IMG/VR virus record: IMGVR_UViG_3300042698_000008
Location: 1-40,813 of that record
Strand: one strand, 5' to 3'
DNA length: 40,813 bases
From: a virus
Part shown: one piece after another, positions 11,665-23,415 of the stretch
Layout: the number at the start of each line of letters is the position of its first letter
How positions within the stretch are numbered: the stretch's first letter is position 1
Program-made: the position numbers and the translations under genes
The notes under the pieces: generated by a model
What the model saw: only the letters and a program-made list of their open reading frames with translations
Databases searched by the model: none
Told to the model about the DNA's origin: nothing

Positions 11665-12054
11665 GTGTCTGGACCTGATCCGGCTTTCGCTGCTTCGCAG
11701 TCCAGCCAATCTTCGTTGTCTGGCCGGTTCCCGCTTCAATCCGGGGTAGGGTTCACGCCTGGACCGTGGCTCGTTGGAACTGGCAGCGGTGGCGGCGCCA
11801 CGACCTACGTTTATGAGGACGATGGATCGGGCCAGCAGTGCCGCGCAATTGCGGCCTGCACGCTTGAGTTTGTCGAGCGCCCAATGGCGGAACGCGAGGC
11901 CAATGCCCGCCTGATCCGCGCGGCACCGGACATGTTAGCCGCCCTTTGCGCAGTGAAGGCATACCACATCGACGCCAACCCAACGAAACTCACTGATGCA
12001 ACGGTGTGCGATCTCGTGTGCGGAGCCCTCGCCAAAGCGCGAGGCGAGCAATGA
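11665..12054 (+). CDS. Conserved-type small phage protein (FTPGPW family)
   Basis: 129 residues, GTG start directly after the preceding TAG. The core GFTPGPWLVGTG, followed by EREANARLIRAAPDMLAALC, is a pattern seen in many phage and prophage proteins of unknown function (FTPGPW ... ANARLI-AAPDLL-AL). The first 30 residues are Ser/Gln-rich and share a 14-base stretch (11705-11718) with the small gene at 13814. No enzyme motif is visible. Confidence 0.7.
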   Translation: MSGPDPAFAASQSSQSSLSGRFPLQSGVGFTPGPWLVGTGSGGGATTYVYEDDGSGQQCRAIAACTLEFVERPMAEREANARLIRAAPDMLAALCAVKAYHIDANPTKLTDATVCDLVCGALAKARGEQ

Positions 12055-12998
12055 GTGCCTTCTACAACGAACATGACCCCTTTGCCGCCGCGTGGCTTCG
12101 CGAGTTGATCGCGGACGGCCTCATTGCGCCTGGCATCGTTGACGAGCGGAGCATCGAAGATGTCAGACCGGACGAACTTGCCGGATTTGTTCAATGCCAT
12201 TTCTTCGCCGGTATCGGAGTCTGGAGCCTTGCCCTGCGAGAGGCGGGATGGCCCGACAACGCTCCGATTTGGACAGGATCCTGTCCATGCCAGCCTTTCA
12301 GCTCGGCAGGCAAAGGAAATGGGTTTGCTGACGAGCGGCACCTGTGGCCCGCTTTCCACTGGCTCATCGAACAGTCGCGTCCTGAGCTCGTCCTTGGCGA
12401 GCAGGTTGCATCCAGTGACGGCCTCGCTTGGCTCGACCTTGTACAAGCTGACCTGGAGGCAGCGGGTTACGCCTGCGGGCCGATCGATACCTGCGCTGCG
12501 GGCTTCGGCGCTCCGCAAATCCGACAGCGACTCTACTGGATGGCCGACGCCCACTACTCGGGATTGGAAGGACGGCTCTCTCAATCTGAACGTGCCGATG
12601 AATGCCCTCCTGGGCCGCGAAGTGTGGCTGACGGGCTGGAGCAGCCCCACTGTGGCGGAACGGGAGCGCAGCCCGGAGATCATTGCCAAGCTGGCAAAGA
12701 AGCGCCTGGAAACCTGCGGCCAAACGACCGTGCCCCTCTATCACTGCGAGCAGGCCCAATTAGTGCAGAACGGCCCGGCCCGCTTAACGGCTTCTGGAGA
12801 GATGCTGACTGGCTCTGCTGCACAGATGGAAAGTGGAGGCCGGTTGCACCCGGCACATTCCCTCTGGCTCCAGTTGGGGCCGTTCGCAACCGCGTGGGCC
12901 AGCTGCGCGGAGCGGGTAACTCGATCAACCTCGCGCAAGCCCAGGGCTTCATCGAAGCCGTAATCGAAACTCGGTCGATCCAGAGGCTCGCAGCATGA
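12051..12998 (+). CDS. DNA (cytosine-5) methyltransferase, second copy type
   Basis: 315 residues, ATG overlapping the previous TGA. Motifs: FFAGIGVWSLAL (51-62, motif I), SCPCQPFSSAGKG with catalytic Cys80 (motif IV), GEQV (117-119 EQV in place of the usual ENV), QIRQRLYWMADA (motif VIII) and a C-terminal part with GFWRDADWLCC, GKWRPVAPGTFPLAP and RGAGNSI (motif X). It is a different subfamily from the minus-strand C5 methyltransferase. About 85% of the gene (12160-12963) is also open in the +1 frame and that frame too encodes a protein-like sequence (next entry). No restriction partner is nearby. Confidence 0.88.
   Translation: MSAFYNEHDPFAAAWLRELIADGLIAPGIVDERSIEDVRPDELAGFVQCHFFAGIGVWSLALREAGWPDNAPIWTGSCPCQPFSSAGKGNGFADERHLWPAFHWLIEQSRPELVLGEQVASSDGLAWLDLVQADLEAAGYACGPIDTCAAGFGAPQIRQRLYWMADAHYSGLEGRLSQSERADECPPGPRSVADGLEQPHCGGTGAQPGDHCQAGKEAPGNLRPNDRAPLSLRAGPISAERPGPLNGFWRDADWLCCTDGKWRPVAPGTFPLAPVGAVRNRVGQLRGAGNSINLAQAQGFIEAVIETRSIQRLAA
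12160..12963 (+). CDS. ORF nested in another frame within the C5 methyltransferase gene
   Basis: 267 residues from the ATG at 12160 (MSDRTNLPDLFNAISSPVSE) to the stop at 12963, wholly inside the methyltransferase gene in the +1 frame. It is not random in character: it contains LSARQAKEMGLLTSGT, TGWPTPTTRDWKDG, a second WLTGWSSPTVAERERSPEII, and GPARLTASGEMLTG followed by MESGGRLHPAHS. I recall similar segments (TPTTRDWKDG; RLTASGEMLTGS-GMESGGQLNP) from phage proteins next to methyltransferases. No function is known to me. An open frame of this length opposite a GC-rich gene can arise by chance, so translation is not proven. Confidence 0.6.
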   Translation: MSDRTNLPDLFNAISSPVSESGALPCERRDGPTTLRFGQDPVHASLSARQAKEMGLLTSGTCGPLSTGSSNSRVLSSSLASRLHPVTASLGSTLYKLTWRQRVTPAGRSIPALRASALRKSDSDSTGWPTPTTRDWKDGSLNLNVPMNALLGREVWLTGWSSPTVAERERSPEIIAKLAKKRLETCGQTTVPLYHCEQAQLVQNGPARLTASGEMLTGSAAQMESGGRLHPAHSLWLQLGPFATAWASCAERVTRSTSRKPRASSKP

Positions 12999-17018: not shown

Positions 17019-18431
17019 CTAGTTCGGAATAAGCCTGTCGTTCGCCTCCGGCCCTGGAATCGGCTTTGACCTATTCGGGTTCCTATTCGCCGCTACTAGG
17101 TTGCCGCTGGCATCCGGATACTTGGCTTGAGAAGCGTCGATCGCTCGGCCGCCGCCCATGTTGCCGGCTGAGCAATTCAGCTTCTTGTTGAGGCAATTGG
17201 CTTCCCAATCGTCGCGGGCGTTAAAATCCCATGCCATGAAGAAGTCAGCATGTGACGTATCCTCTGCCTCCGGATGCATCGGATCGGACGACGCGCCCCA
17301 CTTCGCAAGATCATCACCCTCCGCGATCAAGTAGACCTCCTGAAGCTGGTACTCGGGGATCACGAACGGATGCTCTGCATCGCACTTCGGATAGCCCCAT
17401 GACCCGTATTTCGGATAGCTCAGGTGATCGCGGTGGTTCGGGCTATCGACGCGCTTGCCGTCCCAACAGCTCGGGGCATGAAGTCGCCGGATCAACTGCA
17501 ATCCAGCCCGAGCCTTTCCGCTGGCTGCAACGGCCTTGATCGAAGACCAGCCCGCTCCATTGTTGCTGAACACCGCCCAATTGGTCGGGTCTTGCAGAAC
17601 ATAGTCGACGACGCCGGGAGCCGGGGTTCCGCTCAACATGTCGTATCCGAAGATGAACCTCAGGCCGTTGGGGAGGGGAACGGCAATTCCTTGGGCGAAG
17701 GGCGGGTCTTTCGGATTGATCGGCGTGATAGGTGTGCCAGGCAGAGCCGACACGACCGGATCGTAAGCAGGGCGGCGCTTGTAATAGACTGCTGCGTAAT
17801 CGACCTCGAGGGCGTTGCCCTTCCCGTCGAGCATCGCGGCGGTCCAATACGCGCTGCGGTTGAGCGGATAGTCGCCATAGCCGCAAGTCGATTTCCCGCT
17901 TGTACGGAGGCTCTGATAATTGGAGTCGGGATTGATGCCGGTATTGCCGTAGAAGTTGTGCAGATGGCTCTTTCCGGTCTTGTCGCCGGGATAGACCATC
18001 GGATCAAAGCGACCAAGGCCAGCCGAGCCGCAGATGAACCGGAACGCGCCTACAACGTCAGGATCGGCCGAGCCTGGAATCGTATAGGGCTTGGTCCCGA
18101 GGCGCCAATCGAACTCGCTCTGGATCGCGGGAAGGCCGGCACCGACAACGGGCACGGTTACATCGCCCGGAGGCGTTGGAGCCGGTACAGGCGCCGGAAC
18201 GGGCGTAGGAGCGGGCGCGGGCGTCTCAGCAGCCCGAACGGCCTTGTACGCCTTCAGAGCCCCTTGGAACGCTGCTGTGCCGTCTCTAGCGCCTGACAGA
18301 TAGGCTTTCTTGACGGAGAGCGTTGAGACGGTCCCGGCCATGATTTGACGGGTGTCCGCGACTGGATCCGTTGAGGCGAGCGCTACACTCGCCATGACAA
18401 GCGCCGTGGACGCGAGAACGATCGCGCGCAT
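17019..18431 (-). CDS. Secreted DUF1996 protein
   Basis: 470 residues from the ATG at 18431 (GAAAGGA upstream). MRAIVLASTALVMASVALAS is a signal peptide; about residues 30-75 are helical, followed by a Pro-Ala linker (APTPVPAPVPAPTPP), then a large domain of DUF1996 type: SHLHNFYGNTG, NPDSNYQSLRTSGKSTCGYG, PLNRSAYWTAAMLDGKGN, PNGLRFIFGYDM and HAPSCWDGKRVDSPNHRDH. DUF1996 occurs in secreted proteins of fungi and bacteria; its activity is not known to me. Here it is the last gene of the late operon after the spanins, so it may act in the envelope during lysis or remain as a conversion protein. Confidence 0.75.
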   Translation of the reverse strand: MRAIVLASTALVMASVALASTDPVADTRQIMAGTVSTLSVKKAYLSGARDGTAAFQGALKAYKAVRAAETPAPAPTPVPAPVPAPTPPGDVTVPVVGAGLPAIQSEFDWRLGTKPYTIPGSADPDVVGAFRFICGSAGLGRFDPMVYPGDKTGKSHLHNFYGNTGINPDSNYQSLRTSGKSTCGYGDYPLNRSAYWTAAMLDGKGNALEVDYAAVYYKRRPAYDPVVSALPGTPITPINPKDPPFAQGIAVPLPNGLRFIFGYDMLSGTPAPGVVDYVLQDPTNWAVFSNNGAGWSSIKAVAASGKARAGLQLIRRLHAPSCWDGKRVDSPNHRDHLSYPKYGSWGYPKCDAEHPFVIPEYQLQEVYLIAEGDDLAKWGASSDPMHPEAEDTSHADFFMAWDFNARDDWEANCLNKKLNCSAGNMGGGRAIDASQAKYPDASGNLVAANRNPNRSKPIPGPEANDRLIPN

Positions 18432-18442
18432 GGGTGTTCCTT

Positions 18443-18784
18443 TCAGTGGGTTGTACCGGCCTGCCACTCGCGAAGCCAAGCGTCGTCATTCGCGCACTGG
18501 AACAAGTCGCCCTCGAGCGTGAGGACGTAATTTGCGACAATCTGCTCACGACCGCGAATGACGTTCACGAAATTATCGTGTTCAGCCTTGGCTTGTCCGA
18601 CCGACGCCACCTTGGCCCAGTCGATTTGATACTCAGGCGGAAGCTTCGGGCGCTTTCCCGTCGCGGCCTGGCAGTCGATCCGCTCAGGCGGAATCGGGAG
18701 CGCTTTGACCGTTCGAACCGTGTCGCAGGCGCTAACCGCCAAAAAGCACGTCGAAAGGACTGCTGCCATCTTTAGCGGCTGCAT
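18443..18784 (-). CDS. Rz1-like outer-membrane spanin lipoprotein
   Basis: 113 residues. MAAVLSTCFLAVSAC is a lipoprotein signal with the lipobox LAVSAC, so the mature protein would carry lipid on Cys and sit in the outer membrane. Pro-rich segments (LPIPPERID, KRPKLPPEYQ) follow. Its 5' end overlaps the gene of a membrane-anchored coiled-coil protein by 53 bases in another frame, as Rz1 overlaps Rz. The pair would fuse inner and outer membranes in the last step of lysis. Confidence 0.7.
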   Translation of the reverse strand: MQPLKMAAVLSTCFLAVSACDTVRTVKALPIPPERIDCQAATGKRPKLPPEYQIDWAKVASVGQAKAEHDNFVNVIRGREQIVANYVLTLEGDLFQCANDDAWLREWQAGTTH

Positions 18785-21309: not shown

Positions 21310-22149
21310 GTGTTCTATGGTTTCGCGACGGTGCTGCTTATCGCTGCACTGGTAACGGCAACGGAGTTCGTTGCAGCGGTCGAGCGCCCATCGTGGCGGA
21401 CGCGGCTGAAGGGGTTCACCTTTGTATCGGTCGGCTGGTTCGCAGCGACCGCCCCTCTGACCGCTTTTCTCGTGCTATTCGACGTCTTGGGCGTGAAGCC
21501 GATCTACACGTTTCCGTCACTTACCAGCGAAGCCCTCGGCATTGTCGCCGCGTTGCTATTCTCGGACTTTCTCAACTACTGGAGCCATCGGTTCCTGCAT
21601 CGCTTTGCATGGCCGATTCATGCCGTGCACCACTCCGTTACCGAGCTATGCGCCGCCAACAATTATGCCCACTTCACGGAGAGGGTGATCAAATCGGCGC
21701 TGTTCGCGCTGCCGCTGTCACTGGTGACGTTCAAGTTTCCCGAAACGCCCTACGCAATCGCCTTTTGGCGGGCGGGCATGGAGTTCTGGATTCACTCTCC
21801 GACCAGCGCACACCTTGGTCCGCTGTCGTGGATATTGGTCGATAACCGCTGGCACCGCATCCACCACTCACTGGAAGCACAGCACATCGACAAGAACTTC
21901 GGAATCCTGTTCAGCTTCTGGGACCGAATGTTCGGAACGGCCTGGGTTCCCGCAAAAGGAGAATGGCCCAAGGTCGGAGTGGCGGGAACGCCGCCGCCGA
22001 GAAACGTTCTGGATTACCTGCTGATGCCGCTACGCCGTCGGCGCAATCACGAAGATGCCTTGGAAGTCGCCGCTCGGAACGGCCGAGTAGGAGAACGTGG
22101 CCGAAACGGCTCCGGAGCTTCCGAGGACGCCGCCATAGATGCAACCTGA
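21310..22149 (+). CDS. Membrane fatty-acid hydroxylase/sterol desaturase family protein
   Basis: 279 residues, GTG start. Several membrane segments surround three histidine clusters of the di-iron family: HRFLH (93-97), HAVHH (104-108) and HRIHH (182-186), with further His at 121 and 162-168. These bind two iron atoms and insert oxygen into lipid substrates using O2. The closing AFWRAGMEFWIHSP, FSFWDRMFGTAWVP is typical. No phage structural role fits, and the gene is on the strand opposite to its neighbours, so it is a probable moron expressed from the prophage to alter host lipids or carotenoid/hopanoid-like compounds; substrate unknown. Its last 120 bases overlap the tail gene on the other strand. 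Confidence 0.85.
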   Translation: MFYGFATVLLIAALVTATEFVAAVERPSWRTRLKGFTFVSVGWFAATAPLTAFLVLFDVLGVKPIYTFPSLTSEALGIVAALLFSDFLNYWSHRFLHRFAWPIHAVHHSVTELCAANNYAHFTERVIKSALFALPLSLVTFKFPETPYAIAFWRAGMEFWIHSPTSAHLGPLSWILVDNRWHRIHHSLEAQHIDKNFGILFSFWDRMFGTAWVPAKGEWPKVGVAGTPPPRNVLDYLLMPLRRRRNHEDALEVAARNGRVGERGRNGSGASEDAAIDAT

Positions 22150-23415
22150 TCCCTCGCTGTTGCTGGACGTCTGAAGGCTGCTTCCCTGGTTGCAGGTGAC
22201 GGTCGAGTTTCCGCGGCACTGCCCCATGTAAACGGCATAATCACCCGCCTGCGGAGTCGGCCCGCTTGTGGTTACGTTCCGCGTCGATGAGCCCGACCCG
22301 TTGCGCGTGAAGGCGAAGTCGCGCAGTCCGCCGGTGCAGCCAACGAAAGTGATCCCGCCGACGATGCCGTAATAGGCGTTCGCGAACGTAATTGTGACGC
22401 TGCCGGTGGCAATGTCGGCAGCTGTCAGAATGCGCGAGAAAGCCGCCCCGTTGGTATTACTGCCCGTTAGCGAGACGAGCGTCACCCAGCCCGCCGGCGT
22501 GTTCACTGACCAACCATTAGAGGCGGCGATGTCGCATCGATCACCGGCTTGCGAACCGGGCGGGAGCGAGAAGACGATCGAGCTAGCGTTGTTGACCCAA
22601 GTCAGGCGGCTACCGCGGACGGAAATGGACAGGGACGGCATCGAACCCGACCCCGCCAGCGCGATCGCGGCCATCGCGACGCCTTCGGTGGAGACGAAAG
22701 GCGTTGGCTCCTCGGTTGTTTGAACTCCGGTTCCGGACGAAGCCGCATAATGAAGCGCGAAGTTGTAATTGTTCCCGCCACCACCGTTGTTGTTATAGTC
22801 GAAGCCTTCGGTCCAACCGGCCTCTTCGGTAAACGTCGAGAATGAATCGGTTGCGAATCCGTTGACTATCAGGCGGTTCGCACCCGCGGTCGTGACGGCT
22901 GGCGATGAGATCGCGACCGTCGAATGGTTGGTGGTCATTTTACCGACCACGCTCTCGAAACTCGCAGCCCCGGTGAAGCGCGAAATTGCGGCGCTCTTTA
23001 CGTTCACGATGCCGCCCGACTGTGTGAACGTAAGCGTGCCGCTCTCGGTCCCGTCGGCTACCTTGTAGAACCAGAAGAGCTGGATGCCGGTGTTAACCGG
23101 GCAATGGATCCGCGTGATGCGCTCCCACCCGCTCGGCGTCAGAATGTGCGCGTCCGGCGTGGCGTTGAGGATGACACTGGCGAGCAGGTAATCACCCGCC
23201 GCTATGCTCGCCGGATAGTTTGCTACCAGCGAGTTGGCCGCGTGGGCACCGGTCGAGACATAGGCCGGGCCACCGCCGCCACCTCCACCGCCGCCAGGGG
23301 TGCGCATTTTCAGAGCGCCAATCGGCAAGAAGCCCAACAGCGGCAGTGCGTCCAGAGCCTGCAAAAATCCCGTGAACGCGCTCAAGTCAGGCTTCCTGCG
23401 CCACCGCCACGACAT
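22030..23415 (-). CDS. Tail fibre-like protein with repeated beta domains
   Basis: 461 residues, with a Gly-rich linker near residue 42. Three similar beta-rich modules follow, each opening with a GD motif and often a downstream GW: AGDYLLASVILNATPDA ... LTPSGWERI; AGDRCDIAASNGWSVNTPAGW; and AGDYAVYMGQCRGNSTVTC. Such repeats are typical of phage fibre or adhesin domains. The ATG at 23415 overlaps the previous gene by 29 bases; a TTG at 23385 (SAFTGFLQALD...) with AGGAAG before it is a credible alternative. It would contact the host surface. Confidence 0.75.
   Translation of the reverse strand: MSWRWRRKPDLSAFTGFLQALDALPLLGFLPIGALKMRTPGGGGGGGGGPAYVSTGAHAANSLVANYPASIAAGDYLLASVILNATPDAHILTPSGWERITRIHCPVNTGIQLFWFYKVADGTESGTLTFTQSGGIVNVKSAAISRFTGAASFESVVGKMTTNHSTVAISSPAVTTAGANRLIVNGFATDSFSTFTEEAGWTEGFDYNNNGGGGNNYNFALHYAASSGTGVQTTEEPTPFVSTEGVAMAAIALAGSGSMPSLSISVRGSRLTWVNNASSIVFSLPPGSQAGDRCDIAASNGWSVNTPAGWVTLVSLTGSNTNGAAFSRILTAADIATGSVTITFANAYYGIVGGITFVGCTGGLRDFAFTRNGSGSSTRNVTTSGPTPQAGDYAVYMGQCRGNSTVTCNQGSSLQTSSNSEGSGCIYGGVLGSSGAVSATFSYSAVPSGDFQGIFVIAPTA

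Follow-up and report, generated by a model that had tools for sequence, protein, structure and literature searches.

A nested frame in a phage C5-cytosine methyltransferase gene probably encodes the target-recognition subunit of a split enzyme

Introduction

The smaller of the two polypeptides of the C5-cytosine methyltransferase (MTase) M.EcoHK31I is reportedly encoded in an alternative frame within the gene for the larger one. The account of this enzyme (YGGCCR) that is relayed in a later paper has the larger polypeptide bearing motifs I-VIII and X and the smaller bearing motif IX (Lee 1995, via PMC3404938) and, on that account, such a division of motifs between separate polypeptides can therefore work. 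In M.HhaI and M.HaeIII the small domain consists of the variable region and motif IX (PMC3404938).

Here we describe a C5 MTase locus in a viral DNA of 40,813 nt (IMG/VR record IMGVR_UViG_3300042698_000008, positions 1 to 40,813), the whole of which we call the window. The genome resembles that of a temperate siphovirus, with a CI-type repressor, exonuclease VIII, RecT, an integrase and HK97-like head and tail genes.

Results

Both the MTase frame (12051-12998, plus strand, 315 aa) and the ORF nested in it (12160-12963, plus strand, 267 aa, ATG start) were re-derived from the window exactly as a first-pass annotation had described them; the +1 frame is open from 12109. ATGA junctions link the MTase to the ORFs on either side: its start overlaps the stop of the one before it, and its own stop is overlapped by the one that follows. 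Among the neighbouring genes covered by a scan, none was identified as a restriction enzyme gene, a point of difference from M.EcoHK31I. Elsewhere in the window, two minus-strand ORFs, 17019-18479 (486 aa) and 22030-23415 (461 aa), have no PHROG match at E 0.001. The features of the locus are as follows.

12051..12998, plus strand: frame-0 C5-cytosine MTase, catalytic polypeptide with motifs I-VIII and X (PF00145, PHROG 363, M.HhaI alignment)
12147..12162, plus strand: CGGAGCATCGAAGATG, Shine-Dalgarno (SD) sequence GGAG and nested start codon, inside MTase codons (conserved, 147 loci)
12160..12963, plus strand: nested +1 gene, 267 aa, proposed target-recognition and motif-IX polypeptide (80/80 MTase-selected loci; purifying selection in relatives; PHROG 31772 and 1008)
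12201..12542, plus strand: frame-0 motifs I (12201-12227), IV (12279-12311), VI (12387-12407) and VIII (12510-12542) (dNN/dSN 0.11 in relatives)
12289..12507, plus strand: nested N-half, with the SLSARQAKEMGLLTSGT block (12289-12348) and the STLYKLTW..TPAGR..ALRAS hairpin (12427-12507) (near-invariant columns; dNN/dNS 0.39 in relatives)
12541..12771, plus strand: putative nested target-recognition cassettes, WPTPTTRDWKDG (12541-12636) and WSSPTVAERE (12637-12771) (in relatives, nested dNN/dNS 0.19 and frame-0 dNN/dSN 1.23)
12835..12906, plus strand: nested motif-IX block GGRLHPAHSLWLQLGPFATAWASC, a divergent copy with LQLGP and two extra residues (sequence reading against the family consensus)
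12906..12926, plus strand: frame-0 motif X, RGAGNSI (downstream region selected in frame 0 only, in relatives)

The frame-0 protein matches PF00145 (E 2e-13, residues 73-165) and PHROG 363 (E 7e-78), and its alignment to M.HhaI covers motifs I to VIII only. It carries the catalytic motifs I, IV (PCQ), VI and VIII of a C5 MTase, and motif X (RGAGNSI), which is constrained in relatives, lies on the same polypeptide. All the expected MTase motifs had been placed in this frame by the first-pass annotation; motif X is indeed there, but motif IX is not. The target-recognition region and motif IX, which in the PF00145 scheme belong on the catalytic polypeptide, both lie in the +1 frame here, and only the two frames taken together supply the complete set. 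Between motif VIII and GFWRDADW, frame 0 shows no purifying selection in relatives.

The length of the nested ORF proves little by itself. Given the MTase protein, a +1 run this long has P = 0.019 in the window alone (synonymous-codon permutation or resampling), which is only mildly unusual and is suggestive rather than proof. This figure, and the long reverse-strand ORFs that arise by chance in some loci, leave room for the idea that GC-rich codon usage and MTase conservation keep the +1 frame open as a by-product, with no gene there at all, but comparison among loci reduces its probability almost to nothing. We fetched viral loci with the MTase protein alone, to keep the openness of the +1 frame out of the selection. 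In all 80 of them the +1 frame ran without a stop over 200 codons or more, the median run covering 89% of the gene, and held a recognisable relative of the nested protein, whereas +2 runs in the same loci had a median of 17% of the gene; the openness is always in +1 and never in +2. Homologues with a broken +1 frame, named beforehand as evidence that would count against the gene, were looked for among these loci and none appeared. The by-product idea is also at odds with nested dNN/dNS values of 0.19-0.39 inside the overlap against about 1 outside, and with the match of the nested protein to in-frame sequence of actinophage enzymes (both below). A chance ORF was rejected on the 80/80 open loci and the region-wise selection in relatives.

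Other collections of loci gave the same picture. The nested gene is carried by 80/80 bacterial-contig loci, 85 loci retrieved through the nested protein or through its matches in phages agree on the arrangement, the offset is +1 in every fetched locus, and the arrangement recurs in a second (Firmicutes/marine) clade. With the nested protein as query, tblastn found matches in 203 phage records, and the segments that the first-pass annotation had likened to other phage proteins are signatures of this family. Most of the nested protein is matched by PHROG 31772 and PHROG 1008 (E 3.1e-21 and 2.5e-16), as are 76/76 aligned members; both are labelled 'DNA methyltransferase', so they give no separate function. 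Searching the nested protein against Pfam, NCBIfam, PADLOC and PDB sequences gave no useful match. The view that this is more than a chance ORF is borne out by comparative conservation and by selection in relatives. The pair had also been billed, if real, as one of the longest to be met in a phage of this size. The nested frame is a real, conserved gene and no isolated case: it is almost universal across the sampled clades of phage MTases.

The nested ATG is preceded by GGAG, 8 nt to its 5' side and within the MTase codons ERSIEDV, and CGGAGCATCGAAGATG occurs as a single copy in the whole window. SD and ATG are conserved across 147 loci, with the ATG at the window's position in 91, 18 nt upstream in 38 and 12-15 nt downstream in 15, and nearly all of these ATGs have an SD match. 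This bears on a different scenario, in which ribosomal frameshifting near motif VIII fuses frame-0 motifs I-VIII to the +1 target-recognition region and motif IX, which would leave the SD-ATG a secondary role. The order of the parts in the DNA would indeed yield a nearly complete enzyme by this route, and a natural frameshift joins both parts in the rare loci L267, L328 and L331. However, motif X would be missing from the fusion, an unsystematic look revealed no obvious slippery site, and the nested N-half, 5' of the junction, is under selection (0.39) although frameshifting alone does not need it. The conserved SD-ATG and the selected N-half together make frameshift fusion highly improbable as the main mechanism. 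In L267, L328 and L331 themselves, the nested target-recognition region and motif IX are in frame with motifs I-VIII, and motif X is in another frame; these may be mutants or sequencing errors.

Selection was assessed by scoring single-base differences between independent sequence pairs by their nonsynonymous or synonymous effect in frame 0 and +1, with OLGenie-style counting in our own implementation and Jukes-Cantor correction. The nearest relative of the window copy has at most 73% DNA identity, too distant for selection to be tested in the window lineage by itself, and the figures therefore come from relatives. For the first clade, 36 pairs of 85-98.5% identity were used. Nested dNN/dNS was 0.94 before and 0.85 after the overlap, that is, no constraint, and inside it was 0.39 in the N-half, 0.19 in the target-recognition region and 0.22 in the motif-IX block. 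Frame-0 dNN/dSN was 0.08 before the overlap, 0.11 in the N-half, 0.25 in the motif-IX block and 0.18 after the overlap, and over the target-recognition region it was 1.23 (1.05-1.44). The +2 control frame gave 1.05-2.49 before and within the overlap.

In relatives, then, frame 0 bears most of the constraint over motifs I-VIII and all of it over motif X; the motif-IX block is constrained in both frames. With 1.23 in frame 0 against 0.19 in the nested frame, the constraint over the target-recognition region is therefore on the +1 protein only, and frame 0 is read there but unselected. The same contrast is found in the Firmicutes/marine clade (frame 0 0.86-0.98, nested 0.30), where nested ratios before and after the overlap are less clean than in the first clade (0.39-0.71), partly because the nested start varies there. 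The earlier expectation that both frames would be selected over 800 bases does not hold, frame 0 being effectively neutral across the target-recognition region in relatives. Free substitution at synonymous sites of the MTase, which had been named as evidence against a nested gene, was tested for in relatives and not seen. Between the window and its nearest relative (locus L087), the motif-IX block has one difference in 47 NN sites.

The C-half of the nested protein is made up of cassettes starting WPTP. Nearly all relatives have between one and six of them, and their order differs between phages. After the cassettes comes a consensus block, which reads LNPxWVEWLMGFPxGWTD in the Firmicutes/marine version; hhalign unites the two nested clades in one family (E 1.5e-28). 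This terminal block resembles C5-MTase motif IX (LTPRECARLMGFP), and in the DNA it is closely followed by frame-0 motif X. In the window it departs from the family consensus, with LQLGPFATAW for LMGLPPEW, and in the few loci where a strict pattern missed it a variant was visible on reading the frame. When the nested family was compared with chromosomal and canonical C5 MTases by hhalign, the best match fell on motif IX and was weak (E 0.1 and 0.023). Most of the chromosomal C5 MTases compared have a recognisable motif IX in frame 0, although some escaped the strict pattern, and the nested block is in +1 in none of them. Nested-type genes have no motif IX in frame 0 and an IX-like block in +1. 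The commonest spacing from IX block to motif X is 65 nt in both nested clades, near but not identical to that of single-frame enzymes (typically 29 aa, 87 nt), and is not counted as proof.

Several loci depart from this plan. In L249 (Komagataeibacter phage phiKX2, about 1133-2782), the frame-0 MTase has 549 aa, and past the nested stop the +1 frame holds an HNH-endonuclease-like stretch and then the nested C-terminus once more (AWDDCAVTAMPSSRKSRQ), which looks like the insertion of an HNH element; out-of-frame HNH insertions in mycobacteriophage methylases (PMC11855218) are comparable. In plasmids of Nostoc and Scytonema (L378, 1865-3688; L379, 1724-3286), +1 ORFs of 607 and 520 aa span the MTase and continue with unrelated sequence. 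A Paenibacillus bovis plasmid (L377, 2387-2854) has, 3' of a normal overlapping pair and outside the catalytic motifs, a second, stand-alone WPTP..NPAWIECMMGFPEGW ORF.

What the C-half corresponds to is indicated by actinophage enzymes. In Wachhund-type MTases, motifs I-VIII, several PTP cassettes, the block RLxxAFPEWMMGWPxGW and motif X all lie in one frame. The nested-family HMM matches the stretch from target-recognition region to motif IX of these proteins at 8.6e-16 (hmmsearch; shuffled controls at most 2.4 bits) and hhalign pairs the two at E 2e-10, while the N-terminal part of the single-frame enzymes matches canonical C5 MTases at 2.3e-32. From these matches to in-frame sequence, the nested C-half therefore corresponds to the target-recognition and motif-IX region of a C5 MTase, and so matches in content the small domain of M.HhaI and M.HaeIII. 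SchottB and Graduation are mixed, with the cassettes in +1 and motif IX in frame 0. In Wachhund itself (Mycobacterium phage, L386) a +1 run of 139 codons persists from motif IV, N-half-like (MSATSGP..) and with one PTP motif.

This homology weighs against another reading, that the nested product is a separate conserved phage protein, such as an anti-restriction factor or a regulator, and no MTase subunit. The gene does have a conserved start of its own, and its N-half is conserved without a known counterpart in canonical MTases. Structure predictions add little here: AlphaFold runs on the nested family with 76 and 74 homologues gave low-confidence models, and with such a model a viral fold search returned significant matches to its own relatives only and a PDB fold search none. 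Nevertheless, the C-half is homologous to in-frame MTase sequence, frame 0 is without motif IX and unconstrained in the target-recognition region, and the two frames are inseparable in the loci sampled, and we consider a separate protein unlikely. The nested product had been described as of unknown function and possibly linked to methylation; the link to methylation stands, and a function can now be proposed from the actinophage homology.

Discussion

We favor the interpretation, which we consider likely, that the locus encodes a split C5 MTase with reciprocal overprinting, in which the target-recognition subunit lies nested within the gene for the catalytic one. Frame 0 would provide the catalytic large domain with motifs I-VIII and X, and the internal SD-ATG would allow a second polypeptide to be made in the +1 frame from the same mRNA. 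The C-half of the latter, with its shuffled WPTP cassettes and motif IX, would be the small domain. The DNA order would then be the canonical VIII, target-recognition region, IX, X, with the middle two in +1. The catalytic motifs would have the nested N-half overprinted on them, and over the target-recognition region frame 0 would be a passively read linker. We infer that both polypeptides are translated and associate into one working MTase, and the nested N-half, being selected and conserved, may help to hold the subunits together. By analogy with M.EcoHK31I, methylation would be expected to require both polypeptides.

Phage MTases guard phage DNA against host restriction, and cassette shuffling would change the targets. 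The cassettes of the nested subunit would set the DNA targets in our scenario, and the enzyme probably shields phage DNA from host restriction. More broadly, and with somewhat less assurance than for the locus itself, we think it probable that a major class of phage C5 MTases, spread over proteobacterial, Firmicutes, Bacteroides, cyanobacterial and marine elements, consists of two reciprocally overprinted proteins that make one enzyme, with a shuffled-cassette target-recognition subunit in +1 and an unselected frame-0 linker there, with single-frame and mixed forms in actinophages.

If this is correct, many phage 'DNA cytosine methyltransferase' annotations describe half an enzyme, with target specificity written in a frame that annotation usually omits, and the annotated ORF would be a misleading basis for cloning without the nested frame or for the prediction of specificity. 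The locus would also add a case of overprinting that is large, old and open to test, with a proposable function for both frames; the single-frame and mixed relatives would allow the origin or loss of the two-frame form to be traced, and the shuffled cassettes would offer a route to pairing short peptide modules with methylated motifs. Three records, NC_016765 (PMG1), NC_055839 (FoX4) and PP887698 (Tunturi_1), leave out the catalytic frame and instead give the nested frame alone, under the name 'DNA methyltransferase'.

In the open-access literature we found no paper on the role of the K1G protein discussed below and no report in phages of the arrangement, of a target-recognition domain in a nested frame or of the link to single-frame enzymes. 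No copy of M.EcoHK31I was identified among 296 Enterobacterales genomes.

Among described systems, M.EcoHK31I, as summarized in the secondary account, is the closest: its motifs I-VIII and X are on the larger polypeptide and IX on the second, and the same division is seen here at the sequence level, with the assignment of IX coming through the actinophage link and the direct match to canonical IX being weak. It differs in that this account puts its predicted target-recognition domain in the larger polypeptide, whereas selection and homology put it in the nested one here, and in that the window family has tandem, shuffled cassettes; the likeness lies in the published motif division. M.AquI (PMC3404938) also consists of two polypeptides, the second with part of the variable region and motif IX, but its motif X is on that second polypeptide as well, whereas here motif X is in frame 0 and IX and X are not together. 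The multispecific C5 MTases of Bacillus phages (PMC8936443) similarly have several tandem target-recognition modules, although these lie in the MTase frame and not in +1. The actinophage enzymes of Wachhund, SchottB and Graduation share the catalytic domain and an IX-like block with the window family, and the Wachhund type also the PTP cassettes, but all three have IX in frame 0; the cassettes of Wachhund are in that frame too, and those of SchottB and Graduation are in +1. Finally, the 'Mte8-like protein' of Escherichia phage K1G (GU196277, ORF30), inside ORF31 'C-specific methylase', is the same nested gene in K1 phage records of the 2010 era, annotated there with no function. The motif division is already known from M.EcoHK31I and both frames are annotated in K1G; the spread among phages, the modularity and the nested target-recognition domain are what is added here.
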